DNA from: Brevundimonas sp.
GTDB lineage: Bacteria; Pseudomonadota; Alphaproteobacteria; Caulobacterales; Caulobacteraceae
Length of the DNA: 57,643 nucleotides
Direction: 5' to 3'
NCBI RefSeq assembly: GCF_016463295.1
Contig: NZ_JAEMRO010000009.1
Location: forward strand, 1-57,643
Under the pieces are notes generated by a model, which worked only from the letters and a program-made list of their open reading frames with translations, did not search any database and was not told the origin of the DNA. Shown here piece by piece: positions 29,939-55,077 of the stretch (position 1 is its first letter; every line of letters starts with the position of its first letter). The position numbers and the translations under genes are program-made.

Positions 29939-29960
29939 GCGTTACACCACAGTGAAACGC
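29939..29960. promoter_or_regulatory. 22-bp near-palindrome upstream of the ATP-grasp/LLM pair
   Basis: Left arm GCGTTACAC, centre CACA, right arm GTGAAACGC: eight of nine arm positions are complementary. Nineteen of 22 bases are identical to the site before yerC at 55056-55077. Its position just upstream of the ATG suits a repressor operator. Confidence 0.6.
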
Positions 29961-30055
29961 AAGAGGGGCGGTTGCAGAATTGCGTGCTGCGGGTGGACGG
30001 CTGGTCGCCGCCTATTGGCACAAACGGTCCAGTCCGGCTAAAGGACGCGACGCGG

Positions 30056-30140
30056 GCCCCGGTGGTGGAACTGGTAGACGCGCCGGACTCAAAATCCGGT
30101 TCCGAAAGGAGTGTCGGTTCGAGTCCGACCCGGGGCACCA
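30056..30140 (+). tRNA. tRNA-Leu (anticodon CAA)
   Basis: 85 nt class II tRNA: acceptor GCCCCGG/CCGGGGC, D-region TGGAACTGGTAGACGC, anticodon stem CCGGA/TCCGG around loop CTCAAAA, a long variable arm (TTCCGAAAGGAGT), T-loop TTCGAGT, and encoded CCA. A possible promoter is TTGGCA (30015-30020) with GCTAAA 16 bases on. Confidence 0.96.
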
Positions 30141-30145
30141 TCTCT

Positions 30146-30445
30146 TCAGATCAGGACGCGGCCCAATATCGCTTTCAGCGTGTCGGCACGCGCCTGCAGA
30201 TCGACCGCCAGACGCTGCGCGGCCTCGCGCACCCCGACCGGATAGGCGTCTCGACCGTCGGCGATGTCATCAGCGGCCCGCACGACCTCGGCCATCTGAC
30301 GGACCAGGGCCTCGACATCGTCCAGCGCCAGGGCACGGGCCTCGCGTTGCAGGCGGGCGATGCGATCGGTGCGCGTTTCGGGCGCGGTCATCAGCGCACG
30401 GATTTCGGCGCTGACTGGAGCGGTTTGCAATGCTGCGCTGGCCAT
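30146..30445 (-). CDS. Small hypothetical helical protein
   Basis: 99 aa, no signal peptide, mostly charged amphipathic helix: TRTDRIARLQREARALALDDVEALVRQMAEVVRAADDIADG and REAAQRLAVDLQARADTLKAILGRVLI. It could form a coiled coil. ATG 30445 has AAAGGA seven bases upstream; the frame extends further upstream but without a ribosome site. I do not recognise a family. Its 3' end abuts the tRNA-Leu from the opposite strand. Confidence 0.6.
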   Translation of the reverse strand: MASAALQTAPVSAEIRALMTAPETRTDRIARLQREARALALDDVEALVRQMAEVVRAADDIADGRDAYPVGVREAAQRLAVDLQARADTLKAILGRVLI

Positions 30446-30637
30446 CGTGGTATCCTTTCGAGGGTGCGGGTCATACCCGGTTCGACGGGACACGGTTTGG
30501 CAGGTCATTGCTGAACGCCTCGACAGCTTGGCCGTCAGCAATCGTTCATATGGCGAAGCTGGCGCATTCTCATGCCGTCATGTCTCCTACGGAACGCAGT
30601 CCTTTCGCGAACATTAATGGGTCAGGAGGCTAGCCCC

Positions 30638-30958
30638 ATGATCGCCCTTTTGTTCGCCATCGCCCTGACCCCTGGTCCGACCGATCCTTCGACGTGGCGC
30701 GAGGAGTCGTCAGTCGAACTTCGTCCCGCGATGGCGACTACGGAGACGAAGGCGGAGGCTCCTGCGCTGGCGGCTGTGGCCGTGACGGTCGAGTGCACAG
30801 CGCGGGCCAGCGGAAAGGTCGATGCCTGTGTCGTTCTGGGCGAGACCCATCCGGGCCTGGGTTTTGGAGAAGCTGCTGTGGCGCTGGTTCAGGATAGCCG
30901 CGTCGAGCCGGGTCAGGGCGATGTCCGGTTCGCCCGCACGATCCAGTTCACCCCTTAG
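30638..30958 (+). CDS. Small exported TonB-C-like protein
   Basis: 106 aa. A short signal sequence (IALLFAIALTPGPTDPS) is followed by AVTVECTARASGKVDACVVLGETHPGLGFGEAAVALVQDSRVEPGQGDVRFARTIQFTP, a whole TonB C-terminal-like fold with two Cys in the same places as in the proteins at 25694 and 27117. There is no TonB-type membrane anchor or Pro-rich spacer, so it is not an energy transducer as such. ATG 30638 has CAGGAGG at 30623-30629. Function unknown. Confidence 0.65.
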   Translation: MIALLFAIALTPGPTDPSTWREESSVELRPAMATTETKAEAPALAAVAVTVECTARASGKVDACVVLGETHPGLGFGEAAVALVQDSRVEPGQGDVRFARTIQFTP

Positions 30959-31039
30959 AGTGGCCGAGAGTCTTCGCTGTTGCGAAATGTCATGGCAGCA
31001 AGGTTGCGGTGCACGCCCCGGGGGCGCATCTGACCCGGC

Positions 31040-32290
31040 ATGACACAAGCCGGCACTGAAACCTCTGTCAAAGGCCCCGGCTTTCCCGAGTTCGTCGCCC
31101 TGATCGCCATGATGATGGCGCTGAATGCGTTGGCGATCGACTCCATGTTGCCCGCACTGCCTGCCATCGGCGAGGCGCTGGGCGTCGCCAACGAAAATAG
31201 TCGGCAGTGGGTGGTCACGGCTTATCTGCTGGGCTTCGGCATCACCCAGATCATCTATGGCCCATTGGCCGACCGCTACGGCCGGAAACCAGTGCTCATG
31301 TTCGGGCTCGGCGTCTATGTGATTTTCAGCGCGCTGGCTGCGTTTGCCCCGACGTTCGAACTGCTGATCGCGGCCCGCGTGGGCACAGGCATCGGGGCGG
31401 CCGCCCTGCGGGTGTTGGCCGTGTCCATCGTGCGCGACCGCTACTCCGGACGAACGATGGCGCGGGTCATGTCGCTCAGCTTTCTGGTCTTTCTGGGCAT
31501 TCCGATCCTGGCCCCCACCCTGGGCCAGTTGATCCTGACGGTCGCGCCCTGGCCGTGGATCTTCGGCGTGCTGGCCCTGGCCGGTAGCGCCTATATGATC
31601 TGGACCGCGATCCGCCTGCCGGAAACCCTGGCCCCCGACGATCGGATGCCGATCCAGTTCAGCCGTATCGCCGGGGCCTTTCGCCAGGCTCTGACCGAGC
31701 GCCAGTCCATCGGCTACACCCTGGCCATGACCTGCATCACGGGCGCGCTGTTCGGCTTCATCAACTCCAGCCAGCAGATTTTCTTCGACGTATTCGAGGC
31801 CCCGCATCTGTTCACCACAGTCTTCGGCGCGGTGGCGGGCGGCATCGCTGTAGCGTCCCTGCTGAATGCGCGACTGGTGGAGAAGCTGGGGTCACGGCTG
31901 ATCTCGCACACCGCCCTGATCGGCTTCATCGTCATGGCCACGATCCATTCGGTGGTGAACCTGATGGGCCTGGAGACGATCTGGACCTTCGCCGTCCTGC
32001 AAGGCCTGACCATGTTCTGCTTCGGCTTCATCGCGGGCAATTTCGGTTCGATGGCGATGGAGAAGATGGGCCATATCGCGGGCACCGCCTCCTCGGCCCA
32101 GGGGTTTATCTCCACCACCTTCGGGGCCAGTCTGGGCTTTCTGATCGGCCAGCAGTTCAACGGCAGCGCCACGCCCATGACGCTGGGTTTCGTCGGCCTG
32201 GGGCTGGCGTCTCTGGTGCTGGTCCTCGTGGCCGAGAAGGGGCGGCTGTTCACGGGACGAAACGCAACTGCGACCGCGCCCGCCCCTTGA
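31040..32290 (+). CDS. Bcr/CflA-type MFS drug efflux transporter
   Basis: 416 aa, 12 membrane segments. The Bcr/CflA pattern is clear: ALNALAIDSMLPALPAIGEALGV in helix 1, QWVVTAYLLGFGITQIIYGPLADRYGRKPVLMFGLGVY (MFS motif A), AARVGTGIGAAALRVLAVSIVRDRYSGRTMARVMSL, and LGIPILAPTLGQLIL (motif C of drug:H+ antiporters). It should export small drugs or sulfonamide/bicyclomycin-like compounds using the proton gradient. Single gene; substrate unknown. Confidence 0.9.
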   Translation: MTQAGTETSVKGPGFPEFVALIAMMMALNALAIDSMLPALPAIGEALGVANENSRQWVVTAYLLGFGITQIIYGPLADRYGRKPVLMFGLGVYVIFSALAAFAPTFELLIAARVGTGIGAAALRVLAVSIVRDRYSGRTMARVMSLSFLVFLGIPILAPTLGQLILTVAPWPWIFGVLALAGSAYMIWTAIRLPETLAPDDRMPIQFSRIAGAFRQALTERQSIGYTLAMTCITGALFGFINSSQQIFFDVFEAPHLFTTVFGAVAGGIAVASLLNARLVEKLGSRLISHTALIGFIVMATIHSVVNLMGLETIWTFAVLQGLTMFCFGFIAGNFGSMAMEKMGHIAGTASSAQGFISTTFGASLGFLIGQQFNGSATPMTLGFVGLGLASLVLVLVAEKGRLFTGRNATATAPAP

Positions 32291-32345
32291 TCTTTTCGTC
32301 CGGGCGAGGCGTTGTCCCGGCACAGTTGATGCGAGGAGACGCGTG

Positions 32346-34283
32346 ATGGTCCGCCCCCTGATGATGGTTTCAATGATGGCCCTGTCGACGGCACTATGCG
32401 CCTGCCAGACGACTGACGCGATGAAGACCGACCCGGGTGCCGTCACGGCCATCGCGGCGTCGGAGGCGATGAGCCCCATCCCGCAGGACATACACACCTA
32501 CGCCCAGCCCAATATCGCGCGGGTCACGCACGTCGCCCTCGACCTGACCGCCGACTTTGCGGGCAAAAGCCTGTTTGGCACAGCCACCCTCGACATCGCC
32601 GCCCAGCCGGGTGCGACCGAGATCGTGCTGGACGCCCGAAATCTGGATATCCGGTCGATCACCGACACCACTGGCCAGGCCCTGCGTTTCACCGAAGGTC
32701 GCGACGATCCCATCCTGGGTCACGCTCTGACGGTGCAGATTGGTGAAGCGCGCAAGATCGTCATCACCTATGCGACCCGCCCCGATGCCGCGGCCCTGCA
32801 ATGGCTGACCCCGGCCCAGACCGCGGGCGGTCGTCAGCCCTATATGTTCAGCCAGGGCCAGGCGATCCTGACCCGGACATGGGTGCCGACCCAGGACAGC
32901 CCCGGCATTCGCCAGACCTGGGACGCGACCATCACCGTCCCAGCCGACCTGGCCGTGGTCATGTCCGCCGAAAGCCTGACGCCCGATGGCGAGCCTGGCC
33001 CGAGCAACCAGAAGCGCTGGCGCTTCGCCATGACCAATCCGGTGCCGCCCTATCTGATCGCCATCGGCGTCGGCGACATCGATTTCCAGGCCATCGACGA
33101 GCGCACCGGCGTCTGGACCGAGCCGTCGCGCCTGCGCGCCGCCCACGATGAGCTGATCCCGACCGCCGAAATGGTCGATGCGGCCGAGGCGCTGTACGGC
33201 CCCTACCGCTGGGGCCGGTACGACCTGCTGGTCCTGCCGCCCTCCTTCCCGTTCGGCGGGATGGAAAACCCGCGCATGACCTTTGCCACGCCCACCATCA
33301 TTGCCGGCGACCGGTCGCTGGTCAGTCTGGTGGCGCATGAGCTGGCGCACAGCTGGTCCGGCAATCTGGTCACCAATGCGACCTGGGCGGACTTCTGGCT
33401 GAACGAGGGCTTCACCGTCTATTTCGAGAACCGCATCATGGAGGCGACCGAGGGTCGCGACAGGGCCCTGATGCTGCAGTCCCTGGGCTGGGGGGATCTT
33501 CAGGACACCCTGGCCAGCCTGCCGCCCGCTGACACCCGGTTGAAGCTGGACCTGGCCGGGCGCGACCCGGACGAGGGCCTGACCGACGTCGCCTATGAGA
33601 AGGGGGCCGCCTTCCTGCGCACCATCGAGCGCATCGTCGGCCGCGAGAAGTTCGACGCGTGGCTGACGGGCTATTTCGAGCGCAACGCCTTCCGACCCAT
33701 GACGACCGAACTGTTCCTGGAGGACATCCGCACCCATCTGGTCACGACGCCGGAACTGGAGGCGCAGCTGATGATGGATGCCTGGATCTATCAGCCCGGC
33801 ATGCCGTCGAACTGGCAGCCGCCGGTGTCGGACGCCTTTGCCCCCGTCGATGCGGCGGCCCTGGCCTTTGCGGACGGCGGTCCGGCCTCGGCCATTCCCT
33901 GGGCCAACTGGTCGACCCAGGAGCGTCAGCGCTTCCTGGCCTGGCGTCCGCCGGTGCCGCCCGCCTCGGGCCGCTGGTTCTCCGACGCCCAGCTGGCCGA
34001 TCTGGAGACGACCCTGAACCTGCGTCAGGAGGGCAATGCCGAACTGGTCTTCGCCTGGCTCCAGATCGCGGTCCAGCATCGCTATCAGCCCGCCGTGCCG
34101 ACGCTGGAGCGGTTCCTGACCACCCAGGGGCGCCGCAAATTCGTTCTGCCCCTGTTCACCAGTCTGTGGGGTCAGGGCGACTGGGGCCGCCCGATCGCGA
34201 CCCGTCTCTATGCCGAGGCACGTCCCGGCTATCACCCGGTGACGACCAACTCCGTCGATGCCGTGGTGGGCCGGCCGCTGTAG
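32346..34283 (+). CDS. M1-family metallopeptidase lipoprotein (LTA4-hydrolase-like)
   Basis: 645 aa. The N-terminus MMVSMMALSTALCAC|Q is a lipoprotein signal with lipobox LCAC. The M1 features are GGMENPRMTF (residues 304-313) and the zinc site HELAHSW...NEG: His331, Glu332, His335 and Glu354 in WLNEGFTVYFENRI. The C-terminal helical domain (LADLETTLNLRQEGNAELVFAWLQIAVQHRYQPAVPTLERFLTTQGR) is that of the leukotriene A4 hydrolase subfamily. It cleaves N-terminal residues from peptides in the periplasm. ATG 32346 is seven bases after GAGGAG; a GTG at 32343 is too close. Confidence 0.93.
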   Translation: MVRPLMMVSMMALSTALCACQTTDAMKTDPGAVTAIAASEAMSPIPQDIHTYAQPNIARVTHVALDLTADFAGKSLFGTATLDIAAQPGATEIVLDARNLDIRSITDTTGQALRFTEGRDDPILGHALTVQIGEARKIVITYATRPDAAALQWLTPAQTAGGRQPYMFSQGQAILTRTWVPTQDSPGIRQTWDATITVPADLAVVMSAESLTPDGEPGPSNQKRWRFAMTNPVPPYLIAIGVGDIDFQAIDERTGVWTEPSRLRAAHDELIPTAEMVDAAEALYGPYRWGRYDLLVLPPSFPFGGMENPRMTFATPTIIAGDRSLVSLVAHELAHSWSGNLVTNATWADFWLNEGFTVYFENRIMEATEGRDRALMLQSLGWGDLQDTLASLPPADTRLKLDLAGRDPDEGLTDVAYEKGAAFLRTIERIVGREKFDAWLTGYFERNAFRPMTTELFLEDIRTHLVTTPELEAQLMMDAWIYQPGMPSNWQPPVSDAFAPVDAAALAFADGGPASAIPWANWSTQERQRFLAWRPPVPPASGRWFSDAQLADLETTLNLRQEGNAELVFAWLQIAVQHRYQPAVPTLERFLTTQGRRKFVLPLFTSLWGQGDWGRPIATRLYAEARPGYHPVTTNSVDAVVGRPL

Positions 34284-34298
34284 GGCGGCAGGCCAGCA

Positions 34299-35426
34299 TT
34301 AGGGGGTCTGCCAATCCAGGCGGGCCCACTCCTCCGCGACAGTCGGATCCTGTTCGCCACGCAAGGCTCGCTCACGCCATCGGGCGAAGTCTTCGACTTG
34401 CGCCAGCCGTGACAAGGCCCAGACGGCCGCACCGCGGACAACCGGTGCTTGGTCGCCCAGCAATCGCTCGACCGATGGGATCAGATCCGCGTCACCACTG
34501 TTGCCGATGGCGTAAAGAACATTGCGGACGAACCGATCCCGCCCGATGCGCTTGACCGGGCTCTTGGAGAACAGCGCCCGGAACGCCTTGTCATCCAGCG
34601 CCGCCAGATCGGCCAGCCGCGGCGACACCAGCGCCTCCCGCGCCTTCACCCGCACCTCATGCGCTTGCGATGCGAACTTGTTCCACGGACAGACGGCCAG
34701 GCAGTCGTCGCAGCCATAGATGCGGTTGCCGGTCGCCGTGCGAAACTCGACCGGCCAGGGCCCCGCGAACTCGATGGTCAGATAGGACAGGCACCGCCGT
34801 GCATCCAGCTGGAACGGGGCGGGGAAAGCCTGTGTCGGGCACACATCCAGACAAGCGGTGCAGGACCCGCAATGTTCTGTCTCCGCCTCATCCGGCGCGA
34901 TCTCGGCCGCGCTCAGGATAACGCCCAGAAACAGCCAGTTGCCTTGGTCCCGGCTCAACAGATTGGTATGTTTACCCTGCCAGCCCAGACCTGCCCGCTG
35001 GGCCAGCGGCTTCTCCATCAGGGGCGCGGTGTCCACGAACACCTTCACGTCTTGGCCCGTCCGCGCGGCGACCTGACCGGCCAGGGTCTTCAGCCGCCCC
35101 TTGATGACCTCGTGATAGTCGTCGCCGCGCGCATAGACCGATATGTACCCTGCTCCGGGGTCCGCCATCTCGGGCAGGGGGTCGTGCCCCGGCCCATAGT
35201 TGAGGCCCAGGACGATGGCCGTGCGCGCCCCATCCCACATGGCGGTCGGATGGGATCGCCGCGCCAGCGTCGTCTCCATCCAGCCCATGTCGCCATGCCG
35301 CCCCGCCTCGACGAAATGCGCCAGCCGCTCACCAGCACTCCACGGCTCAGACGCCGAGGCGAACCGGCAGACGTCGAAGCCCATGGACGTGGCGGCGGTG
35401 CGGATGGGGTCGCGAGGGTCAGTCAC
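34299..35426 (-). CDS. queG: Epoxyqueuosine reductase QueG
   Basis: 375 aa. Final step of queuosine synthesis: cobalamin-dependent reduction of epoxyqueuosine in tRNA. Motifs: VFVDTAPLMEKPLAQRAGLGWQGKHTN with catalytic Asp132, first ferredoxin cluster CGSCTACLDVCP (Cys186, 189, 192, 196), second CDDCLAVCPW (Cys239, 242, 246, with Cys212), and a C-terminal HEAT-like repeat (LIPSVERLLGDQAPVVRGAAVWALSRL). The GTG start shares one base with the stop of the preceding secreted protein gene (TAGTG), so it is translationally coupled. Confidence 0.95.
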   Translation of the reverse strand: MTDPRDPIRTAATSMGFDVCRFASASEPWSAGERLAHFVEAGRHGDMGWMETTLARRSHPTAMWDGARTAIVLGLNYGPGHDPLPEMADPGAGYISVYARGDDYHEVIKGRLKTLAGQVAARTGQDVKVFVDTAPLMEKPLAQRAGLGWQGKHTNLLSRDQGNWLFLGVILSAAEIAPDEAETEHCGSCTACLDVCPTQAFPAPFQLDARRCLSYLTIEFAGPWPVEFRTATGNRIYGCDDCLAVCPWNKFASQAHEVRVKAREALVSPRLADLAALDDKAFRALFSKSPVKRIGRDRFVRNVLYAIGNSGDADLIPSVERLLGDQAPVVRGAAVWALSRLAQVEDFARWRERALRGEQDPTVAEEWARLDWQTP

Positions 35427-36484
35427 TAGCCGCCAGAGATGCGCGCACGGCGCAAACGGTCGGTTTCCAAACGTTCAACCACCAACTTGTCGATCGCATC
35501 ATAGGCCTCCATGGACGCCTCGGCATCGTCTGCTGCGACAGCGGAAGCGACGATCTCAAGCTGCGCCGCGATCCGCAGCTCGATATCGGCACTACTCATC
35601 ATACTCGTGCAGATGAACAGCAATGTGTCTTTCAATGGCGTGCCGACCAGCTGCCGTTCCGCCTCGATCTCCGTGCGAAGCCGCGTAATGTCGCGCTTCA
35701 GATTTTGTGCCGCGCCAGCAGCAGCTGCGGCACGGGTCCTGATCGCCGCAGCCGATCCCGCAGGATCACTCGGTTGCCCTTCTGCATCGGCCTGAATGAA
35801 GCGCATCCAGGCCAACGCGGCATGGTTGGCCTCCTCCAAAGCGACCGAGAAATGGTAGGCAGGTTCGCCTTGGGCCGGGCGACTGCTGGCGATCATCAGG
35901 ATCTCGATATTGAGTTGCGCCATACCCAGCGCAAAATGCGCCCTGCCCAACGCCTGCAGATCCGTTTCACGACCCGATGACGCGGTCACGACGCTGTCGA
36001 TGAACTGATCGGCGCTGTCCGTGGTTTGTCTCAGCAGGGTGCCGATCCGGTCACGCAGTTCGACCTGTTGCCTTAGTGCTGCCCGCCCTTGTTCTTCCGA
36101 TCCCCGTACCCTGGGCGGAGCGGGTGGATCGACGGGCAACGTCGGATAGATGGCGTTCAGCTCAGCGTAGGCTGTTCTAGTCTCGGTCGCCCAGGCGTCC
36201 GCCCATCGTTTGGCCTCACGTGTGTCGCCGCGCTGCAGATGAGCTTGCAGCGTCTCACTCACGTCTAGCAAAGCCAGCATCTGGTCGCCTCGTCGTGTGA
36301 CCAGGACCATATATTGCGAATTCCAGGCCATCAGGCGCGACAGCCAGGCGTCGAAGTCAGCCGGCGTAGCCTCTTGAGCGCGAGCCGCAGGCGGAGCGTT
36401 CGCTGCCATGGCAGGCGAAGCCCCTACCGCGGCGGAGACAAGCGCCAGTCCTACCGCCGTCGCGGTTCCCATCCGATGAAGCAT
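35426..36484 (-). CDS. Secreted helical protein of unknown function
   Basis: 352 aa with a signal peptide (GTATAVGLALVSAAVGASPAMAAN). The mature part is almost entirely helical with long charged stretches (GSEEQGRAALRQQVELRDRIGTLLRQTTDSADQFIDSVVT, AAGAAQNLKRDITRLRTEIEAERQL) and a conserved-looking centre ALGMAQLNIEILMIASSRPAQGEPAYHFSVALEEANHAALAWMRFIQADAEG. There are no catalytic motifs I recognise. ATG 36484 follows GGGGGAA by eight bases. It sits between fzlA and queG in the same direction, and its base composition is less GC-biased than theirs. Confidence 0.7.
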   Translation of the reverse strand: MLHRMGTATAVGLALVSAAVGASPAMAANAPPAARAQEATPADFDAWLSRLMAWNSQYMVLVTRRGDQMLALLDVSETLQAHLQRGDTREAKRWADAWATETRTAYAELNAIYPTLPVDPPAPPRVRGSEEQGRAALRQQVELRDRIGTLLRQTTDSADQFIDSVVTASSGRETDLQALGRAHFALGMAQLNIEILMIASSRPAQGEPAYHFSVALEEANHAALAWMRFIQADAEGQPSDPAGSAAAIRTRAAAAAGAAQNLKRDITRLRTEIEAERQLVGTPLKDTLLFICTSMMSSADIELRIAAQLEIVASAVAADDAEASMEAYDAIDKLVVERLETDRLRRARISGG

Positions 36485-36501
36485 CTGGTTTTCCCCCGGT
36501 G

Positions 36502-37185
36502 TCAGAAATCGAGATCGTCATACCAGATCGATGGATGCACACCCGGAAACCGGTCTGCAAGCAGGGACCTGAAAGAGGGCCGCGACTTCAGCTTCATGTA
36601 CCAGGTCTTCAAACCTGGATAGCTGCCCCAGGCGATCTCACCGAAATAGTCGAGGACCGAGATATGGGCGGCGGCGACCAGATCGGCCTGGCCCATGCGG
36701 CGGCCGGCCAGGGCATCGCGCAGGGTCAACAAGTCCTCGAACATCGTCAGATGGGTGCGCAAGGATTCGCGCCCGGCGCGCAGGGCCCGGGCCTCGGGCG
36801 GGCCGAGCCGCAGCAGCGGCTTCTCCATCCGCTCGTGCAGCAGCACCGCATTGACGTCATCGGTGAAGCGGCGGTCGAACCATCCGATCAGGCGGCGCGT
36901 CTCGGCCCGCTCGGCAGGGTCGGTGGACAGGAGGAAGTCGCCCTTGGCCCGATCCTCCAGCCAGCCCAGGATGGCCGCCGGTTCGCACAGCGTCAGCAGG
37001 CGCCCGTGTTCCGTAACCTGAAGCACCGGCGGCATGCCCGACGGATTCAGCGGGCCGACCGGGCAATCGTCCTCCCACGGACGAACGGGCGTCTCGACCA
37101 CCGTCAGCTTCGCCTCGCCCAGGGCCAGGCGCACGCTGCGCGAGGCGGGATCGAAGGCGAAATGATACAGGACGGGGTCCGACAT
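36502..37185 (-). CDS. fzlA: FzlA, GST-like FtsZ-binding division protein
   Basis: 227 aa with a GST fold: N-terminal thioredoxin-like domain (PVLYHFAFDPASRSVRLALGEAKLTVVE ... LNPSGMPPVLQV) and helical C-terminal domain (RRLIGWFDRRFTDDVNAVLLHERMEKPLLRLG, AAAHISVLDYFGEIAWGSYPGLKTWYMKLKSRPSFRSLLADRFPGV). The C-terminal tail ending in YDDLDF is the mark of FzlA, which in Caulobacter curves FtsZ filaments and activates septal wall synthesis. The usual GST catalytic residue is not evident, consistent with a structural role. Confidence 0.82.
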   Translation of the reverse strand: MSDPVLYHFAFDPASRSVRLALGEAKLTVVETPVRPWEDDCPVGPLNPSGMPPVLQVTEHGRLLTLCEPAAILGWLEDRAKGDFLLSTDPAERAETRRLIGWFDRRFTDDVNAVLLHERMEKPLLRLGPPEARALRAGRESLRTHLTMFEDLLTLRDALAGRRMGQADLVAAAHISVLDYFGEIAWGSYPGLKTWYMKLKSRPSFRSLLADRFPGVHPSIWYDDLDF

Positions 37186-37250
37186 CCGGCCCTTATGCGA
37201 CCGGGGATGTTAAGCCCGCGTTAGCTATGCGGCTGAACGGGGCAGCGATT

Positions 37251-38189
37251 TCAGTCCCACGGCCCCGCATCGGCAGATGCCGCCTCGGCCACCTCATCCG
37301 GGCGGGTGCGACCGCGCGGATCAGCATGGATCAGGATATCGGAGCCCGGAAAGGCGAGGCGCAGACGATCTTCGGCCTCGACCACGATGTCATGGGCCGC
37401 GACCAGGGTCAGGCCCGGATCCAGATCAACATGCATCTGGATCATCAGGACCGTCCCCGCCATCCGTGTCCGCAACTGATGCAGGCCCGAAATGCGCGGG
37501 TCGGCCAGGACGGCTGCGACGATCGCCTTGCGCTGCTCTTCGGGCGCAGCGCGGTCCAGCAGGTGATCAGAGGCGTTCTTCAAAATGCCAATCGCACCCC
37601 AGAACAGCCAGACCGAAACCAGCAATCCCGCCGCTGCATCCAGTCCGGGAGCCGACAAGAAGGTGCCGGAGATGACGCCAATCAACACCACGCCATTGGC
37701 CGCCAGATCGCTGGCGTAGTGGGCGCGGTCGGCCGCCACGGCCAACGAGCCACTGCGCTGCATCGCCCGCGACTGCATCCAGATCAGCCAGCCGGTCAGA
37801 CCGATCGACAACACCACGACGACGACCGCCGTCATGCCCGAACTGACGGGTTGAGGGTCGAACATCCGCTGTATGGCCTCAAAGCCGATGAAAACCGCCG
37901 AGGCGAACACCAGACCCGACTGGACCAGCGCCGCCAGGGCCTCGCCCTTGCCGTGGCCATACCGATGATCCTCATCGGCCGGCGCGGCGGCCCAGCGCAC
38001 GGCAAAGAAGGTCGCCAGCGACGCCACCAGATCCAGCGCCGAATCCGCCAGAGACGCCAGGATGGACACCGACCCCGACGCACCGAGCGCAAAGGCCTTC
38101 AACACGATCAGCACCACGGCCACAGCCACCGCCAGGCGGGTGATGTCGCGGGTGGCCGCGCGGGCGTCGGACGAAGGTACGGATGTCAT
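37251..38189 (-). CDS. Cation diffusion facilitator (CDF) metal efflux protein, FieF-like
   Basis: 312 aa. Six membrane helices in the first about 200 residues and a cytoplasmic ferredoxin-like dimer domain. Metal-site motifs are visible: SLADSALDLVASLAT (Asp pair, helix 2), DEDHRYGHGKGEALAALVQS (loop signature), and DRAHYASDLAANGVVL (HxxxD, helix 5). The C-terminal domain carries MAGTVLMIQMHVDLDPGLTLVAAHDI and ends in a charged tail. It exports Zn, Fe or similar divalent ions by proton antiport. It lies between fzlA and uppP. Confidence 0.9.
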   Translation of the reverse strand: MTSVPSSDARAATRDITRLAVAVAVVLIVLKAFALGASGSVSILASLADSALDLVASLATFFAVRWAAAPADEDHRYGHGKGEALAALVQSGLVFASAVFIGFEAIQRMFDPQPVSSGMTAVVVVVLSIGLTGWLIWMQSRAMQRSGSLAVAADRAHYASDLAANGVVLIGVISGTFLSAPGLDAAAGLLVSVWLFWGAIGILKNASDHLLDRAAPEEQRKAIVAAVLADPRISGLHQLRTRMAGTVLMIQMHVDLDPGLTLVAAHDIVVEAEDRLRLAFPGSDILIHADPRGRTRPDEVAEAASADAGPWD

Positions 38190-38330
38190 TCACGGCCTTG
38201 TCGCGGAAAGCGGAGACGATGCCAAGGCGAACGATGTCGCGCCGATACGTCGCATCCGAGGCTCGCCTATCGTCCGCTCTCTGGCTAAAGGCTGGGTCGC
38301 GGCGATGGTGCCGCGCTTTGAGCGGACATC

Positions 38331-39152: not shown

Positions 39153-39162
39153 AGCCTGATCC

Positions 39163-40149: not shown

Positions 40150-40278
40150 GGCGAACTGCTCCGAAGACGACGCGAAACCGGGGCGGACATGGCTGGCCGA
40201 ACCCTTGCTGCGCTGGGGATTAGACGATGCGCCCGCCGCTCGCAACGCAATGGCGATAAAACCCTGTTGACCCGACTT

Positions 40279-40298
40279 GGACCCTGCCTTAAGGGTCC
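40279..40298. promoter_or_regulatory. Perfect inverted repeat between NDUFA9-like gene and tRNA-Leu
   Basis: GGACCCT and AGGGTCC flank six bases. A TTGACC hexamer at 40267-40272 overlaps its left edge. It lies between divergent units and might be an operator or a hairpin; no T-run follows. Confidence 0.3.
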
Positions 40299-40341
40299 GC
40301 GCCTTCCAGATGGAAACGCGCCCCGGCGCGGTGACATCCGG

Positions 40342-40428
<87 letters not shown>

Positions 40429-40436
40429 ATCATTCG

Positions 40437-40473
40437 AACGGCGTCGCATCGACAAGATGCGGCGCCGTTTTCG
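40437..40473 (+). terminator. Terminator of tRNA-Leu(CAG)
   Basis: A 14-bp stem, AACGGCGTCGCATC with GATGCGGCGCCGTT, around GACAA, followed by T-rich sequence. Confidence 0.85.
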
Positions 40474-44423: not shown

Positions 44424-44547
44424 GAACAGGGATTTGACCCATCCCCGCCGGTTTCACAATGTTGAGTCCTGGCCCGTGCATGCTGCGCCTGCGAAGAAAA
44501 GGTGACGCTTGCGGGAAACCCAGAGCGGTTGATGCGTTAGGAGGCCC

Positions 44548-47117: not shown

Positions 47118-47127
47118 GCGTTTGCCC

Positions 47128-48546
47128 ATGAGCCGCCTGATCGTCGTTTCCAACCGCGTCTCGGCCCCCAAGGACCCGTCCGCCGGGTCCGCGGGCGGTC
47201 TGGCCATGGCCCTGTCGGCGGCGCTGAAGACCTACGACGGCCTGTGGTTCGGCTGGTCCGGCGAAACCGTCGAGACGTTCACGGGCGAGGCCAAGATCGA
47301 GGATCGCGCCGGCGTCACCGTCGCCCTGGTCGATCTGGAAGCGCAGGACGTCGACGAATATTACAACGGCTATGCCAACAAGACCCTTTGGCCGCTGTTT
47401 CACCACCGGGTCGATCTGACCGCCTATGAGCGCACCTATGGCGAGGGCTATGAGCGCACCAATGCCCGCTTCGCCGAGGTTCTGGCCCCGCTGATCCAGC
47501 CGGACGACATCATCTGGGTCCATGACTATCACATGATCCCGATGGCGCGGGACCTGCGCCGCCTGGGCATCAGAAACCGGATCGGCTTCTTCCTGCACAC
47601 GCCCTGGCCCGCGCGCCAGCTTCTGGTCACCCTGCCCCACCACCGTCGGCTGGTGGAGTCGATGTTCGACTACGACCTGATCGGCTTTCACACCCGCGAA
47701 TGGCTGGACCTGTTCCGCGACTACGTCGCCTCCGAACCCAGTGTGGACGGCAAGCTGTTGCCCAACGACGCTCTGGAAGCCTTCGGCAAGACCGTCCAGA
47801 CCGGCGTCTTTCCCATCGGTATCGACGTCGAGGGATTTCTGGAGGCCCGGAACTCCGCCTTCGGACGCCGCACCTACGACCGGATGGCGGCGTCCTCGGC
47901 CTTCCGCTCAATGATGGTCGGCGTGGACCGTCTGGACTATTCCAAGGGTCTGGAGGAACGGCTGTTGGGCTATGAGCAGTTCCTGCACGACAACGCCGAC
48001 ATGCGCGGGCAGGTCTTCCTTTTGCAGGTCACCCCGATCAGCCGGGACGATGTCGACACCTATCAGGACATTCGCGGCCGCCTGGATTCCCTGGCCGGGC
48101 GGGTCAACGGCGAATATGCCGACATGGACTGGCAGCCGATCCGCTACATCAACCGAACCTATCGCCGGGACCAGCTGGCGGGCATCTATCGTGCGGCGCG
48201 CGTCGGCTTGGTGACGCCCCTGCGCGACGGCATGAACCTGGTCGCCAAGGAATATGTCGCGGCCCAGAACCCTGACGATCCGGGCGTTCTGGTCCTGTCG
48301 CGCTTCGCCGGGGCGGCCGAACAGATGGGCGAGGCTTTGCTGGTCAATCCGTTCAGCCGCGAGGAGGTCGCCGACGCCATCAAGCGCGCCCTCACCATGC
48401 CGCTGGAGGAGCGCAAGCGGAAGTATCAGGCCCTGATGCAGGTGGTACGCGACACCGATGTCAGCGTCTGGCGCGACGACTTCGTATCCACGCTTCGCGC
48501 CATCGAGAATCCTTCGGACCGGGACGGGGATATTCGCGCGGCCTGA
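47128..48546 (+). CDS. otsA: Trehalose-6-phosphate synthase OtsA
   Basis: 472 aa GT20 enzyme making trehalose 6-phosphate from UDP-glucose and glucose 6-phosphate. Motifs: RLIVVSNRVSAPKDPSAGSAGGLAMAL, VWHDYHMI-type IIWVHDYHMIPMARDLRR, IGFFLHTPWPARQLLVTLP, GVDRLDYSKGLEERLLGYEQFL and the nucleotide end LVTPLRDGMNLVAKEYVAAQ. Start ATG 47128 lies ten bases after the GH15 stop; the frame is open upstream inside GH15 but that part is a shadow. Third gene of the trehalose operon. Confidence 0.96.
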   Translation: MSRLIVVSNRVSAPKDPSAGSAGGLAMALSAALKTYDGLWFGWSGETVETFTGEAKIEDRAGVTVALVDLEAQDVDEYYNGYANKTLWPLFHHRVDLTAYERTYGEGYERTNARFAEVLAPLIQPDDIIWVHDYHMIPMARDLRRLGIRNRIGFFLHTPWPARQLLVTLPHHRRLVESMFDYDLIGFHTREWLDLFRDYVASEPSVDGKLLPNDALEAFGKTVQTGVFPIGIDVEGFLEARNSAFGRRTYDRMAASSAFRSMMVGVDRLDYSKGLEERLLGYEQFLHDNADMRGQVFLLQVTPISRDDVDTYQDIRGRLDSLAGRVNGEYADMDWQPIRYINRTYRRDQLAGIYRAARVGLVTPLRDGMNLVAKEYVAAQNPDDPGVLVLSRFAGAAEQMGEALLVNPFSREEVADAIKRALTMPLEERKRKYQALMQVVRDTDVSVWRDDFVSTLRAIENPSDRDGDIRAA

Positions 48547-48577
48547 GCGTCTGACGACCGCATAGGCGTGATGATCC

Positions 48578-50185
48578 TCAAGCGGCGCGCGAAACCTCTA
48601 GCTCCGACGGCGTCAGGGCCCGCCGGATGGCCGCCAGAAGCAGTTCGGGCTGGATCGGCTTCTGCACCACGCCGTTCATCCCCGCCGCCAGATATTCGAT
48701 CTCGTCGCGCGGATCGGCATTGGCCGTCAGGGCCACGATGGGGATGGAGGCCTGCGGCTGGCCCGAAGCCCGGATGGCGCGTGTCGCCTCCACCCCGTCC
48801 ATCACCGGCATCTTCACGTCCATCAGGATCAGATCGAAGGGCCGCTGACCGACGCGCTCCACCGCCTGCGCGCCATCATCGGCGGTCTCGTGGGTGCAGC
48901 CAAACATTTCCAGCAGCTTGCCGGCGACGAAGCGATTGGTGGCGTTGTCGTCAACGACCAGCACATGCAGGGTCTCGTGCGGCGTCGGTTCGGGCAGGCC
49001 TTCGACCGCGCCGCGCATCTCGGGGCCCGCGCAAGGCAGCGCCAGGTCGAATCGGAACCGCGCGCCGCCCTGCGGGGATCGCTCGACCGCCAGCACACCC
49101 TGCATCCGCTCCACGATCTGGCGACAGATGGCCAGACCCAGGCCCGCGCCTGCCCCCTCACGCCCGGCCTTGCCGGTATTGAAGGGCTGAAAGATCGTGC
49201 GCGCCGTCGCCTCGTCGATGCCCGGACCGCTGTCGTCGACGGTCCCGATCAGACGCACGGCCCCTTGATCCCACGCGCTGGTCAGATGCACCGCGACCTC
49301 GCCCGAGGGCGTGAACTTCAGCGCATTGCCGATCAGATTGTTGAGCAGCTGCTTCAGCCGCATCTCGTCGCCGACCACCCAGTCATGGCCCGTCGTGTCG
49401 CAGCGGACCGTCAGGGTCAGCCCCTTCTCCTGCGCCCTCGGCGTCCACAGAGCCATCAGATCGGCGGCGATGGCATCGATATGAACCGGGGCCGTCTCGA
49501 AGCTCATCAGCCCCGCCTCGGCCCGCGACATGTCCAGCGCATCGGTCAGCAGCCGCAGCAGGCTGTGGCCCGAATCCAGGATCGTCCGTGCATAGGGCCG
49601 CATGGCTTCCTGCGTCAGCTCCCGCTCCATCAGGGCAGCCACGCCCAGCACGCCGTTCAGGGGCGTACGAATCTCATGGCTCATCACCGCCAGAAACTCG
49701 GACTTGGCGCGGCTGGAGGCGCGGGCCTCGGCCTCGGCGCGGACCAGATCCTGCGCCAGCTCGCTCATCGCCTCTGCCCGGCGTTTGTGGATGGCGCTGC
49801 CGGCCTGAAGCACGTGGACACCGGCCCCCACGCCCAGATACCGGCCCGACCGCGTCACCACGAAGCCGTTCAGCAACCCGCCCAGATTGGCCGCATCGAT
49901 GCTCTCGAACAGGATCTCGGCGTCCGCATCGGCGTCCAGCACGCGGGGGTTCGCATCCATGAAGGTCGAGGCCGGGCGGCGGGCATAGAGGGCGCGACCG
50001 AATTCGGCGGCCATCTTCAGGGTGAAGGCATTGCGCTCGATCAGGCCCAGCGGACGCTGATCCGCATCGACCACGGCGATGACCAGGGTATCCGCCTCGC
50101 GCTGGAAGCGGTCGAAGACTTCGGCACCGGGCGTGTCGGGGCCCACGGGCGGCGCGACGCTGGCAAAGTCTCCGATCCGGGCCAT
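48578..50185 (-). CDS. Hybrid histidine kinase with CBS-like N-terminal domain and receiver
   Basis: 535 aa, soluble. N-terminal about 130 residues resemble a CBS pair (TLVIAVVDADQRPLGLIERNAF, NGFVVTRSGRYLGVGAGVHVL). HisKA follows with SHEIRTPLNGVLG (phospho-His170), HATPase with NNLIGNALKFTPSG (N-box), DDSGPGI (G1) and GAGLGLAI (G2), then a receiver domain with VVDDN and phospho-acceptor Asp456 in DLILMDVKMPVMDG. With kinase and receiver in one protein it needs a phosphotransferase partner, none of which is adjacent. CBS domains bind adenosyl nucleotides, so it may sense energy or second messengers. Orphan kinase. Confidence 0.9.
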   Translation of the reverse strand: MARIGDFASVAPPVGPDTPGAEVFDRFQREADTLVIAVVDADQRPLGLIERNAFTLKMAAEFGRALYARRPASTFMDANPRVLDADADAEILFESIDAANLGGLLNGFVVTRSGRYLGVGAGVHVLQAGSAIHKRRAEAMSELAQDLVRAEAEARASSRAKSEFLAVMSHEIRTPLNGVLGVAALMERELTQEAMRPYARTILDSGHSLLRLLTDALDMSRAEAGLMSFETAPVHIDAIAADLMALWTPRAQEKGLTLTVRCDTTGHDWVVGDEMRLKQLLNNLIGNALKFTPSGEVAVHLTSAWDQGAVRLIGTVDDSGPGIDEATARTIFQPFNTGKAGREGAGAGLGLAICRQIVERMQGVLAVERSPQGGARFRFDLALPCAGPEMRGAVEGLPEPTPHETLHVLVVDDNATNRFVAGKLLEMFGCTHETADDGAQAVERVGQRPFDLILMDVKMPVMDGVEATRAIRASGQPQASIPIVALTANADPRDEIEYLAAGMNGVVQKPIQPELLLAAIRRALTPSELEVSRAA

Positions 50186-50282
50186 ACGCTACTCCTGTGG
50201 GCAGCGAGCCATAGACGCGGGACCTTTAACGGCAGCTTTGCCGTTCGTGAACCTTTCGCGATATTCTGTTTAAATACAGTCC

Positions 50283-51701
50283 TTAAGCGGACGATTTCAA
50301 CCGCTCGACGAGACCGTCCGCAAAGGTCGAAAGCGTATCGTCCCGCGCCCCCATGACCACGATCCGGTCGCCGGGCTGCGCCATCTCGATCAGGCGATCG
50401 CCACAGGCCTCGCGCGTCGACAGGGCCTCGGCACGACGATCATGGGTTCGCACGCCGGCCGCAATGTCCTCGCTTCCGACACTGCGATCCGTGGTCCCGC
50501 CATAGTAGACCGGCTCGGGCATCAGCAGGACGTCGTCGGGTCGCATCAGACCGGCGAACCCTGCGATGAACTCGGCTTTCATCAGCTTCAGCGGCCCAAA
50601 GCCGTGCGGCTGGAACAGGATCAGCAGCCGCCCGTCGAAGGCGTGCAGGGTCTTCAGGGTGGCGGCAATCTTGTCGGGGTTGTGGGCGAAATCGTCGATG
50701 ACGGTGACGCCATTGGCCGTCCCGACGACCTCCATCCGGCGCCGAATGCCGGCAAAGGTTTCCAGCGCCGCAACCGCCTCGGCCAGAGGCACACCCAGCG
50801 CCGTCGTCGCGCCCAGGGCCGCCAGGGCATTGGCGACATTATGGGCCCCGGGCACGTTCAGGGTCACGGGCAGGTTCGCGCCGCTTTTGCGATCTCTCAG
50901 CTTGAAGGTCATCCCTGTCGGTTGCGGCACCAGATCGTGCGCCGACAGATCGGCTTCGTCGTTGCCGAGGGCGAAAGTCAGAACCGCATCGGCCCGACCC
51001 GCCTCGACCAACTCCTGCGCGAGAGCCGCCGTCTCGGGGTTGTCCAGGTTCAGCACCGCCCGATCCGCCCGCGCGACAAAGCCACCGAACAGATCGCGCA
51101 ACTCCTCCATCGACTTGTGGTCAAGCGAGATGTTCGAGACCACCGCCACCGTCGCGTTATAGGCGGCGATGGAACCGTCCGACTCATCGACCTCGGACAC
51201 GAACAGATCCTGACCGCCGATCAGGGCGCTGGCGAAGGGGTGGTCGCCATCGACGAAATTCCTCATCACCGCACCGTTCATGACGGTCGGCGCACGCCTG
51301 GCCTGATGCAGGATCCAGGCGACCATGCCGGTGATGGTGGACTTGCCGCTGGTTCCCGCGATACCGATGGAGGTCGGGGCCGCATTGAACAGCTGGGACA
51401 GCATCTGCGGCCGGGTCACGATCCGAGCGCCAACCCGCCGCGCCGCACCGATATCGGGCACCGTATCCTCTACCGCGCCGGTGGCGACGACGACCTGGTC
51501 TACCCGGGTGACACCCGATCCGTCCTGGGGATGCAGGGCGATGCCTCGACCGCGCAGCCAGTCGAACTTCACCGGCGTCCGCCCCTGATCGTTGGACCGG
51601 TCCGAGCCCTCGACATGGCCGCCGCGCGACTGGACGATCAGGGCCAGGGGCAGCATGCCCGAGCCACCGATACCGCAGAAGAAATAGTCGTCTTGATGCA
51701 C
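50283..51701 (-). CDS. Mur ligase family protein, MurC/Mpl type (probable murein recycling)
   Basis: 472 aa. Order of domains as in MurC and Mpl: UDP-MurNAc site [30 protein letters not shown]-loop [10 protein letters not shown] (residues 113-122), [45 protein letters not shown], and [18 protein letters not shown]. MurC normally has GTHGKTT; the GTSGKST P-loop is divergent. It lies outside any mur/fts cluster and diverges from an LD-carboxypeptidase gene, so ligation of recycled peptides (Mpl role) or a second MurC are both possible. The GTG at 51701 fits the MurC N-terminus; the frame continues to 51809 but would overlap the divergent gene. Confidence 0.82.
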
Positions 51702-51789
51702 GCTTGATCTCGGGGGGCGAAACCGGGGAAGGTCGGGTCGCCTGACTAGATCATTTTTGTTTGCGGGCGAAGCGCGAGACCACAGCCTC

Positions 51790-52611
51790 ATGAAGATCGG
51801 TATCGTCAACGCCAGCTCGCGCTTCGACCGCAGCCGCGCCGAGGCCGTCCACGCCTGGATGGCGGCCCACTATCCCGACGGCAGCGTGTCGGTGGTCTTC
51901 CACCCCGCCTGCTTCCTCAAGCACGGCCATTTCGGCGGTGATGACGCGACACGGGCCAATGCCTTTGTGGAGTTCGCCAACGACCCACGCCTGGATGCGA
52001 TCTGGTTCGCGCGCGGCGGCTATGGCTCCTGCCGGATCGCGGAGGCCGTCCTGCCGCGCCTGACTGATGTGGCGCGGACCAAGCGCTATCTGGGCTATTC
52101 GGATGCGGGCAGCCTGCTGGCCCTGCTCTACAAGGCCGGGTTTCCGCACCTGGCCCACGGCCCGATGGCCTCGGATGCCGTGCGCGACGACGCAGCCGCC
52201 TATCGCGCTTTGCGCTGGCTGACCAAGGGCGACCGCGAGGGGTGGGAGCCGTCCTTGCACACAGATCCGCGACCCGCCGTGGCCTTCAATCTCAGCATTC
52301 TGGATGCCCTAGTCGGCACGGCGCTGGAGCCCGATCTGACGGGCCACGTCCTGATGCTGGAGGATGTGGCCGAGCCCCTGTACCGCATCGACCGGATGAT
52401 GTTTCATCTGACCGGCCAGGCCTCCATCCGGCGTGTCGCGGGAATCCGGCTGGGCCGCGTCTCGGACATCGTCGAGAACGACCCGGCGTTCGGCCTGACG
52501 GCGGAAGAGATCGTCCGCTACTGGTGCGCGCGCTCGGGGATTCCGTATCTCGGGGCCGCCGACATCGGTCACGACACCGCCAACCGGATCGTGCCCTTCG
52601 GCCTACGTTAG
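51790..52611 (+). CDS. ldcA: Murein LD-carboxypeptidase (S66 family, LdcA-like)
   Basis: 273 aa, no signal peptide, so cytoplasmic. S66 motifs: [39 protein letters not shown], the nucleophile-bearing [27 protein letters not shown] (Ser about residue 101), the Glu in [22 protein letters not shown], and the His in [17 protein letters not shown]. It removes the terminal D-Ala from murein tetrapeptides during recycling. It shares an 88-bp divergent promoter region with the Mur ligase gene, supporting a joint recycling role. Slightly shorter than E. coli LdcA (304 aa). Confidence 0.9.
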
Positions 52612-52830
52612 TCACGCCGTTCGCCTGAGGGGTGAAGCCGTTCGACGGCGACCCTGAGGCATGGTCCAGTCCCGCTCGCGTCCGGTTGCACACGGACGGT
52701 CGACCGGGCGTCGGAGACACCGGTTCGGCCAAGGGGCCTGGTGGATGTCGGGGGGCATCCATCAGGTCGCCGTTGCCCGCGACAAACGCGCTCTGGCATC
52801 GCCCCGCCCCAGCCGCCATGTTGAAGCGGC
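52612..52830. other. Spacer between LD-carboxypeptidase and aspartyl protease genes
   Basis: About 220 bases. I see no convincing gene, RNA or terminator. It includes GGATGTCGGGGGGCATCC (52743-52760), a short hairpin GGATG...CATCC. Confidence 0.3.
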
Positions 52831-53778
52831 ATGAACCGTCGCAACCTCCTGATCCGCGCCGCAGGACTGGCCGCCGTCGCCGGCGCGGCCTGGTGGGCGC
52901 GCGACAATCTGATCTGGCCGAAACCCGACCTCATCTTTGCCGACGGCCATGCCACGCCCTGGTCGCCCTATGCTAGGCGCGCCAACGTCCCGACGATCCA
53001 AGCGACGATCGAGGGCCGGGACGTCATCGCCCTGATCGATACCGGGGCCCAGTATTCGGTGGTGGATCGCGGCTTCGTCGCGACCCTGGCCCCGCGCGAA
53101 CGCTCGCTGTTCGACATGCCCCTGCTGGCCTATGGCGTCGGCGGCGGATCGCAGGTCGGGCGCGGCACGACGCTGGACCTCGACCTGCCGGGGCTTCGCA
53201 TCGGGGGGCTCCGCGCCGCCATTCTGGACCTGGGTCCGCTGGCGGCCGTGGAGGGGCTGGCCACGCCACTGATTCTGGGCCGCGATGTGCTGGAACAGGT
53301 CGTCCTGGCGCTGGATGCCGACCGCCGTCATGTGCGCCTGATCGTGCCGGGTGCCTTCGTCCCGCCCGAGGACATGATCGAGGCCGAGGTGGTGCGCGAC
53401 GGCAATGCCCTGGTCGCCGAGGTCACTGTTGAGGGGAATGTACTGAACGCCGTCGTCGACACCGGCTCATCCTCCCTGCTGGCGGTGTCGCGCGGCTCCG
53501 CCGCAGGCGTCGGCCTGCTGGACGGGCGTCCCAGCGAGAGCGGCGTCAGCCTGGTCCTGGGCGGCTCGATGCGCGCCGATACGGTCGAGGCCCGCACCGT
53601 CACCTTTGCCGAGCAGCTGTACCGCCGGGTCCGGGTCGGCGTCTTCGAACAGCCCGCCCTGCCCAACTTCCCAGACGGCCTGGTCGGCATGGAGGCCTTC
53701 GAGGGTCGTCGCGCCGCGCTGGATCTGGGTGCGGGACGACTGCTGATCTCGCGCCAGCTGGACCTGACGATCGGTTAG
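52831..53778 (+). CDS. Membrane-anchored two-lobed aspartyl protease (retropepsin-like repeats)
   Basis: 315 aa. The N-terminus (RRNLLIRAAGLAAVAGAAWWA) is a Tat-like signal or anchor. Two homologous lobes follow. Lobe 1, about residues 58-172, has TIEGRDVIALIDTGAQYSVVD (Asp70) and closes with LILGRDVLEQVVLALDADRRHVRL. Lobe 2, about 196-310, has TVEGNVLNAVVDTGSSSLLAVS (Asp210) and closes with GLVGMEAFEGRRAALDLGAGRLLI. Retropepsin-like bacterial proteases usually have one lobe and dimerise; here both are fused, giving a pepsin-like arrangement. Periplasmic; substrate unknown. Its stop overlaps the convergent flavoprotein stop. Confidence 0.82.
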   Translation: MNRRNLLIRAAGLAAVAGAAWWARDNLIWPKPDLIFADGHATPWSPYARRANVPTIQATIEGRDVIALIDTGAQYSVVDRGFVATLAPRERSLFDMPLLAYGVGGGSQVGRGTTLDLDLPGLRIGGLRAAILDLGPLAAVEGLATPLILGRDVLEQVVLALDADRRHVRLIVPGAFVPPEDMIEAEVVRDGNALVAEVTVEGNVLNAVVDTGSSSLLAVSRGSAAGVGLLDGRPSESGVSLVLGGSMRADTVEARTVTFAEQLYRRVRVGVFEQPALPNFPDGLVGMEAFEGRRAALDLGAGRLLISRQLDLTIG

Positions 53779-54992
53779 TTGGCCACCAGCTTCATCGACA
53801 CCGAGGTGTCCGCCAGCTTCTCCGCATCCACCGGCGTACCACGCGCGATCATCTGGCGGCCCGCCATGAACTCGGCCGGCGCATTGACGGCCTCGACCGA
53901 CACGATCCGGGCGCCCGCCAGATGGAAGACCGCAAAGCCGACCGGGCCTGTATCGATGTCCGGCACGCCCCGCACGATCTGGCGGTCGGCCCCATCGGGC
54001 AGGCCCGCGATCTGCAGCTTCAGCTCATACTGGTCGGACCAGAACCACGGCACCTCAGGCGCGGGCGCAGGGCGTCCGGTGATGGCGGCGGCGGCCTGTT
54101 TGGCCTGTTCCAGCGCATTGGGCACGCTTTCCAGCCGGTGGCGCAGGGCACCGTGCACGGGGATCGGGCGGTGGGTCGCATCGCCGATGGCCCAGATGGC
54201 CGGATCGCTGGTCCGCGCCGCCTCGTCCACGACGATGCCGTTCAGACAGTCCAGCCCCGCCTGATGCGCCAACGCCTCATTGGCCAGGGCCCCGACCCCG
54301 ACCAGGATGGCGTCCGCCGCGATCAGCCGTCCATCCGCCAGCCGCACGCCGTCCGCCTCGAACGCCGTGACCTCCGCCCCCGTCAGAATGTCGACGCCCT
54401 GGGCGCGGTGCCAGGCGGTGAAGAAGGTCGACAGGGTCTCCGACGCCACGCGCGCCAGCACCCGGTCCATCCGCTCGATCACCGCGACCTCGGCCCCCAG
54501 GGCACGGGCCGACGCCGCGGCCTCCAGCCCGACATAGCCGCCCCCGACCACGGCCAGCCGCCGGCCGGGTCCCAGCGCCGCCTTCAGCCGTTCGGCATCC
54601 TCCAGCGTTCGCAATTCGATCAGTTCGGGCCGATCCGCGCCGGGAATGGCCAGCTTTCGCGCCACCGAACCGGTCGCCAGGATCAGGGCGTTATAGGTCT
54701 CGGTCGTGCCGTCCGAAAAGGCCACGCTTCGCCCCGCCTGTTCGATGGCAGTCGCCGTCACCCCCAGCCGCAGATCGATGTCCTGTTCGACATAGAAGCT
54801 GTCGGGCCTCAGCAGCAGATCGTCCCGCTCCGCATGCCCCTTCAGCCAGGCCTTGGACAGGGGCGGCCGCTGATAGGGCGGCACGGTCTCAGACCCGGCC
54901 AACACGATCTGGCCCTCGAACCCATACTGCCGCAGCAGCGCCGCCGCCGTACCGCCCGCATGCCCCGCGCCGATGATCACAACCTTGTCCAT
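53775..54992 (-). CDS. Ferredoxin/rubredoxin reductase-type FAD oxidoreductase
   Basis: 405 aa, the usual length for NADH:ferredoxin reductases of Rieske oxygenase and P450 systems. FAD site DKVVIIGAGHAGGTAAALLRQYG (residues 2-24), PPYQRPPLSKAWLKG, NALILATGSVARKLAIPGAD, NADH site LAVVGGGYVGLEAAASARALGAEVAVIERMDRVLAR, second FAD motif AIWAIGDATHRPIPVHGALRHRLESVPNALEQAKQAA, and the reductase C-terminal domain (PWFWSDQYELKLQIAGLPDG). No ferredoxin or oxygenase gene is beside it. ATG 54992 is chosen because the motif GxGxxG must lie near the N-terminus. Confidence 0.92.
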   Translation of the reverse strand: MDKVVIIGAGHAGGTAAALLRQYGFEGQIVLAGSETVPPYQRPPLSKAWLKGHAERDDLLLRPDSFYVEQDIDLRLGVTATAIEQAGRSVAFSDGTTETYNALILATGSVARKLAIPGADRPELIELRTLEDAERLKAALGPGRRLAVVGGGYVGLEAAASARALGAEVAVIERMDRVLARVASETLSTFFTAWHRAQGVDILTGAEVTAFEADGVRLADGRLIAADAILVGVGALANEALAHQAGLDCLNGIVVDEAARTSDPAIWAIGDATHRPIPVHGALRHRLESVPNALEQAKQAAAAITGRPAPAPEVPWFWSDQYELKLQIAGLPDGADRQIVRGVPDIDTGPVGFAVFHLAGARIVSVEAVNAPAEFMAGRQMIARGTPVDAEKLADTSVSMKLVAN

Positions 54993-55055
54993 GAGGCTCA
55001 GATAGAGAGGCCTGCGACACCTTTCCATCCCGAACTTCGCCCCTTGACCGTTCCA

Positions 55056-55077
55056 GTGTTACACCATAGTGGAACGC
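55056..55077. promoter_or_regulatory. 22-bp near-palindrome abutting the yerC start codon
   Basis: Left arm GTGTTACAC, centre CATA, right arm GTGGAACGC (seven of nine arm positions complementary), ending one base before ATG 55079. It matches the site at 29939-29960 at 19 of 22 bases. TTGACC (55044-55049) lies just ahead, and a -10 such as CATAGT (55065-55070) would fall inside it, so a bound protein would block transcription. With this promoter the yerC mRNA would be leaderless. Confidence 0.55.

Follow-up and report, generated by a model that had tools for sequence, protein, structure and literature searches.

A 22-bp dyad shared by yerC-hisG-hisD and an ATP-grasp/monooxygenase gene pair in Brevundimonas: candidate operators of HisR

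We analysed two near-identical 22-bp dyads in a 57,643-nucleotide stretch of Brevundimonas sp. DNA (positions 1 to 57,643 of contig NZ_JAEMRO010000009.1, assembly GCF_016463295.1; hereafter the window). One lies directly ahead of yerC-hisG-hisD, and the other ahead of a gene pair for an ATP-grasp ligase and a bacterial luciferase-like flavin monooxygenase (LLM). From sequence comparison we consider it highly likely that HisR (YerC), the TrpR-family regulator encoded at 55079-55390, has both palindromes as its operators. The arrangement at yerC is already that of published HisR; the site at the pair is the new part, and makes the ATP-grasp/LLM genes a candidate second HisR target. Also new is an apparent operator variant, seen together with an altered recognition helix.

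The two sites and the ATP-grasp/LLM loci

The site at 29939-29960 (GCGTTACACCACAGTGAAACGC; in gene direction, on the minus strand, GCGTTTCACTGTGGTGTAACGC) and that at 55056-55077 (GTGTTACACCATAGTGGAACGC) are identical at 19 of 22 bases, and each has 8 of its 11 arm positions paired (hand counts). Half-sites GTTnCAC and GTGnAAC stand about a 4-bp centre, a dyad of TrpR/HisR architecture. The yerC ATG (55079) lies 1 nt past the end of its site and the ATP-grasp ATG (29927, minus strand) 11 nt past the end of the other. A first-pass annotation of this DNA had described two near-identical dyads ahead of start codons and judged them unlikely to be chance; the positions and the 19/22 match are reproduced here, and the counts agree with its judgement. 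With at most three mismatches, an 18-bp core matches twice in the window against 0.01 expected, and the 22-mer twice in the whole genome, its reversed control never. The relaxed dyad GTTNCANNNNNNTGNAAC (GTTnCA-N6-TGnAAC) occurs at exactly two places genome-wide, the two sites themselves, again with no match for the reversed control. Both of these places are just ahead of start codons. The genome searched comprises 2,740,828 bases (2.74 Mb) in 152 contigs and is 95.58% complete; it held no third dyad place, though weaker sites could escape this search, and so nothing in it points to strong HisR sites at the remaining his genes.

Conservation was assessed largely in related genomes, many of them drafts. 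Scanning named genomes, we found 251 relatives; the locus counts given here rest on the best 80 of them. The dyad stands ahead of ATP-grasp in 18 of the 20 loci of a Brevundimonas-type clade (17 with at most two mismatches, L129 with three), and the laboratory strain B. alba DSM 4736 (L125) is one carrier of both dyad and pair; by the same mismatch count, L153 has two mismatches (at -123) and L162 three among the other 60 loci. A scoring matrix was trained solely on sites upstream of yerC in 21 related genomes (13 different sites), our own genome excluded. It ranks the pair site second in the window, after the yerC site, at 22.4 bits, with 5.7 bits for the third place. Upstream of ATP-grasp it scores 12.2-23.5 bits in the same 18 of 20 clade loci and 8.7 at most in the other 60, none of which scores like the clade loci; 4 of 1,018,445 background positions reach 12.2 bits, and the background maximum is 17.0. 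Taken together, the genome-wide uniqueness, the matrix scores and the restriction to one clade indicate that the dyads are very probably real operators.

A tree of 38 protein rows places the site in 19 of the 21 rows of one supported clade and requires two changes, most simply read as one gain of the site followed by one loss in L127/L128. In the family sample of 149 genomes, 18 have a strong ATP-grasp homologue, and the dyad (at most one mismatch) precedes it in 4/4 genus genomes and 0/14 outside the genus. Within the genus, 9 of 41 genomes carry the pair. Six of these copies are close and have the dyad (by pattern match in five, by eye in the sixth, G178); the other three are diverged, at about 60% identity. 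This diverged lineage (G157, G159 and G173; L226-L228) has a different upstream stretch that is shared among its members, and the L228 monooxygenase aligns in part only.

LLM is present in 78 of the 80 loci (exceptions L147, at a contig end, and L150) and lies beside ATP-grasp in 16 of the 18 family genomes, the exceptions being L033 (also the 16-kb stretch L108) and L034, at a contig end.

YerC was searched for in the genomes of 36 of the 80 loci. It was found in 18 of the 19 searched genomes of clade loci, L127 and L128 included, the exception being L130. That contig is filed under Pseudanabaena biceps, carries a Brevundimonas-type pair very close to that of L132 in the tree and belongs to a record with no YerC match; it is probably a contaminating contig. 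We also considered whether pair carriers outside Brevundimonas lack YerC. This is true of the 14 non-genus carriers in the family sample, all of which fall outside the 46 genomes that gave a YerC match, but it fails generally, as YerC is present in 7 of 17 other genomes searched. In the YerC-bearing pair carriers outside the clade, yerC upstreams look different and the pair promoters are without the dyad.

HisR, its operator and its recognition helix

YerC passes the curated models for HisR (YerC/YecD) and the TrpR family (TIGR02531, 67.7 bits against a cut-off of 42.2; PF01371, 71.9 against 27). With TrpR and the trp operators it shares the family PF01371 and the half-site spacing, but it falls below the TrpR equivalog cut-off (24.3 versus 67.25 bits). 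HisR, called yerC in Bacillus subtilis, is a TrpR-family histidine repressor; the Ruminococcus gnavus protein bound DNA in vitro with histidine as its most effective ligand and co-repressor, and his operons are its predicted targets, Caulobacterales among them (Ashniev et al., 2022; PMC9413887). In Proteobacteria it is described there as regulating his operons almost exclusively. We take the identity of HisR, and histidine as its co-repressor, from that literature; the first-pass annotation had called YerC a DNA-binding protein with no known target, which was wrong.

As in the published regulon, the regulator gene comes first in the his operon with the operator directly upstream: yerC, hisG and hisD stand in line, an operon assignment that rests on their spacing. 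The dyad architecture is similar, and presence in Caulobacterales is reported, but the operator itself differs, GTTnCAC-N4-GTGnAAC here as against TGTAnTAr.. in the published one. Individual Caulobacterales sites upstream of hisR may already be listed in the supplements of PMC9413887, the main text of which contains no occurrence of "ATP-grasp"; our open-literature search recognised no paper on HisR in Brevundimonas.

YerC occurs in 46 of the 149 family genomes, 23 of 24 in the genus and 23 outside it. The dyad (at most two mismatches) lies near the yerC start in 22 of the 23 genus carriers; the exception, G092 (L086), has three mismatches upstream of yerC. The 23 carriers outside the genus are without it, and upstream of yerC many of the carriers without the genus dyad show another repeat (TGTATCAGCACGCTAACAC, for example). 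The proteins divide along the same line: the 22 genus YerC proteins with this operator have the recognition helix SPTTVVRV (L067: SPTTVTRV), and STTT.. is the reading both in G092, whose upstream also differs, and in the 23 non-genus family rows. Operator and YerC recognition helix thus differ together between the genus and its relatives. Across genus genomes, the genus pattern (at most one mismatch) is present in 35 of 41, with none for the reversed control. In three sphingomonad pair carriers (L259-L261), yerC is directly preceded by a GTTCCA...TTGGAAC dyad of its own, another operator variant.

The features of the window are collected below. The 26-bp dyad over the yerC operator is an addition to what the first-pass annotation observed; it directly follows the TTGACC string and stops close to the yerC ATG. 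At the pair, CTTGCGTT occupies the same place as the candidate -35 box in all 18 site-bearing clade loci. A tRNA-Leu (CAA) gene lies at 30056-30140 (+), about 95 bases from the operator at 29939-29960; Rfam, run on 10 of the 80 loci, returned just two tRNAs and one tmRNA at gathering score.

Table 1. Coordinates of the candidate operators, promoter elements and genes in the window.
Feature	Position	Strand	Basis
Candidate HisR operator (22-bp dyad) of the ATP-grasp/LLM pair	29939..29960	-	genome-wide uniqueness; kept in 18/20 clade loci
Candidate HisR operator (22-bp dyad) of yerC(hisR)-hisG-hisD	55056..55077	+	genome-wide uniqueness; kept upstream of yerC in genus
Longer 26-bp dyad GTTCCA-N14-TGGAAC, three half-sites, overlapping the yerC operator	55050..55075	+	similar in many genus yerC upstreams (by eye)
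Candidate -35 box TTGACC abutting the yerC operator	55044..55049	+	by eye
Candidate -35 box TTGCGT overlapping the pair operator	29957..29962	-	by eye
yerC = hisR, TrpR-family regulator, 103 aa	55079..55390	+	TIGR02531
hisG, ATP phosphoribosyltransferase	55400..56281	+	family models
hisD, histidinol dehydrogenase	56278..57588	+	family models
ATP-grasp ligase gene, 314 aa, LysX/ArgX/RimK-like fold	28983..29927	-	family models, structure comparison
LLM flavin monooxygenase gene, 356 aa; start overlaps ATP-grasp stop	27916..28986	-	family models

Control of two operons and its alternatives

HisR binding at both sites, and repression by promoter overlap, are what we infer from these comparisons. 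In the simplest reading, histidine-bound HisR would obstruct both promoters, which were assigned by eye. A HisR dimer with histidine as co-repressor would bind GTTnCAC-N4-GTGnAAC, and through the overlap of the dyad with the promoter both the hisR-hisG-hisD operon and the ATP-grasp/LLM operon would be shut off; at low histidine HisR would release, and both would be switched on. The first-pass annotation had suggested that YerC might bind both sites, autoregulating with hisG-hisD while controlling the enzyme pair, and had proposed comparing the upstream regions of yerC and ATP-grasp orthologues. That comparison, which found the dyad in 22 of 23 genus carriers at yerC and in 18 of 20 clade loci at the pair, supports autoregulation with co-control of the pair, and one regulator, most likely YerC, for both sites.

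Several observations weigh against HisR control of both operons. The site at 55056-55077 fits the proteobacterial HisR consensus TGTAnTArnnnnyTnTTACA at just 7 of the 14 positions it specifies, as counted by hand, a consensus that is a lineage average and not a defining feature of the HisR protein family. The strict dyad GTTNCACNNNNGTGNAAC is found in 12 of the 149 family genomes and its reversed control likewise in 12 of 149; as it is no commoner family-wide than the control, the exact motif belongs to the genus level. Among 18 further clade genomes, for two of which the yerC upstream printout ends within the site, one (G204, L246) has the SPTT helix with a departing yerC upstream. Three genus genomes that gave no match to the pair (G155, G165 and G174) carry a second HisR-like site with one mismatch, possibly a further HisR target or chance. 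At the pair, L127 (-8.0 bits) and L128 (0.8 bits) are without the site although both genomes have YerC, and by eye the three diverged genus copies are without the dyad. From these five copies it follows that the pair can do without HisR control.

The departure from the published consensus also speaks for another helix-turn-helix regulator, which would control both operons with HisR no more than a neighbour. We consider this improbable given a site that stays beside the yerC start in nearly every genus carrier, a half-site spacing that is TrpR/HisR-like, and an operator that differs between lineages together with the YerC recognition helix. HisR might instead bind its own operator only, the palindrome at the pair being an ineffective decoy or relic, as its absence from L127, L128 and the diverged genus copies could suggest. 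Retention of the site near the start in most clade loci despite differing flanks, even where protein identity drops to 66-69% (L129, L130 and L132), makes this highly improbable. Short as the motif is, a chance similarity or non-regulatory repeat is hardly credible beside the 0.01 matches expected in the window, the two genomic places just ahead of start codons and the conservation across the genus. If both dyads are indeed HisR operators, a recently described repressor gains a second, uncharacterised operon beyond the his operon; the histidine level and hisR would offer a testable handle on the enzyme pair; and the change of operator with recognition helix in the genus would be an example from nature of a TrpR-family repressor co-evolving with its operator.

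What the enzyme pair may do

The pair occurs in Caulobacteraceae, Sphingomonadaceae and Rhodanobacteraceae, and our open-literature search recognised no paper on it or its function. The ATP-grasp protein shares the LysX/ArgX-like fold over its chain; the LysX, ArgX and RimK ligases are its closest solved folds, at 15-20% identity in the best rows, and it falls below the RimK models (PF08443, 19.3 versus 21; TIGR00768, rimK_fam, 36.4 versus 143.4). LLM passes PF00296 (Bac_luciferase; 200.5 versus 27.9), the family it shares with the two-component flavin monooxygenases SfnG, SsuD and MsuD, and its closest solved chain is 3rao (2.1e-106). Its best NCBIfam match is the SfnG (dimethylsulfone monooxygenase) model TIGR04021, below cut-off (221 versus 382.95 bits), and it is also below the SsuD cut-off (159.3 versus 518.2); we therefore assign no substrate to it.

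Some clues point to sulfur. By both model and structure matches LLM resembles desulfonating enzymes. MetNIQ-type transporter genes, an assignment Pfam-checked in L185 alone, lie near the pair in 7 of the 80 loci (L128, L133, L135, L136, L144, L183 and L185), among them L128, one of two clade members without a HisR site. Tandem MetJ-like boxes (at least 11 of 16 positions) lie upstream of the pair at 76-88 nt in 6 of 9 Rhodanobacteraceae-type loci (L142, L157, L160, L168, L175 and L179, not L147, L148 or L178; L157, named Lysobacterales only, is counted here). Of the 71 other pair loci 5 have such boxes, as do 69 of 2700 windows drawn at random from the same loci. All eight Rhodanobacteraceae-type genomes searched have MetJ, and in several of them the MetJ-box motif GACGTCNAGACGTC outnumbers its reversed control. 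As far as a flattened table shows, no MetJ regulon is given for the four Xanthomonadales studied in PMC4239095.

The likeness of LLM, the MetNIQ-type neighbours and the MetJ-like boxes with MetJ favour salvage of methionine or organosulfur compounds. Our tentative view, put forward as possible rather than probable, is that the pair salvages an organic sulfur or amino-acid compound, by ligation together with a cleavage or oxidation that depends on flavin, and joined the histidine regulon once, in Brevundimonas. It is somewhat unlikely that the pair instead makes a peptide-like or amidated product by LysX/RimK-type ligation, then matured by the monooxygenase, without any sulfur salvage: the closest solved folds do belong to enzymes that join amino acids to proteins or peptides, yet the MetNIQ-type neighbours and the MetJ-like boxes of the Rhodanobacteraceae-type loci speak against such a product. 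A bolder form of the salvage reading, and a long shot, has the pair splitting a histidine compound that contains sulfur, either a thiohistidine resembling ergothioneine or ovothiol or a conjugate containing methionine and histidine, into sulfite or sulfide and a histidine moiety. HisR wiring in Brevundimonas and MetJ wiring in Rhodanobacteraceae would then both arise because the substrate holds sulfur as well as histidine, and the two regulators would jointly reveal an uncharacterised salvage pathway.

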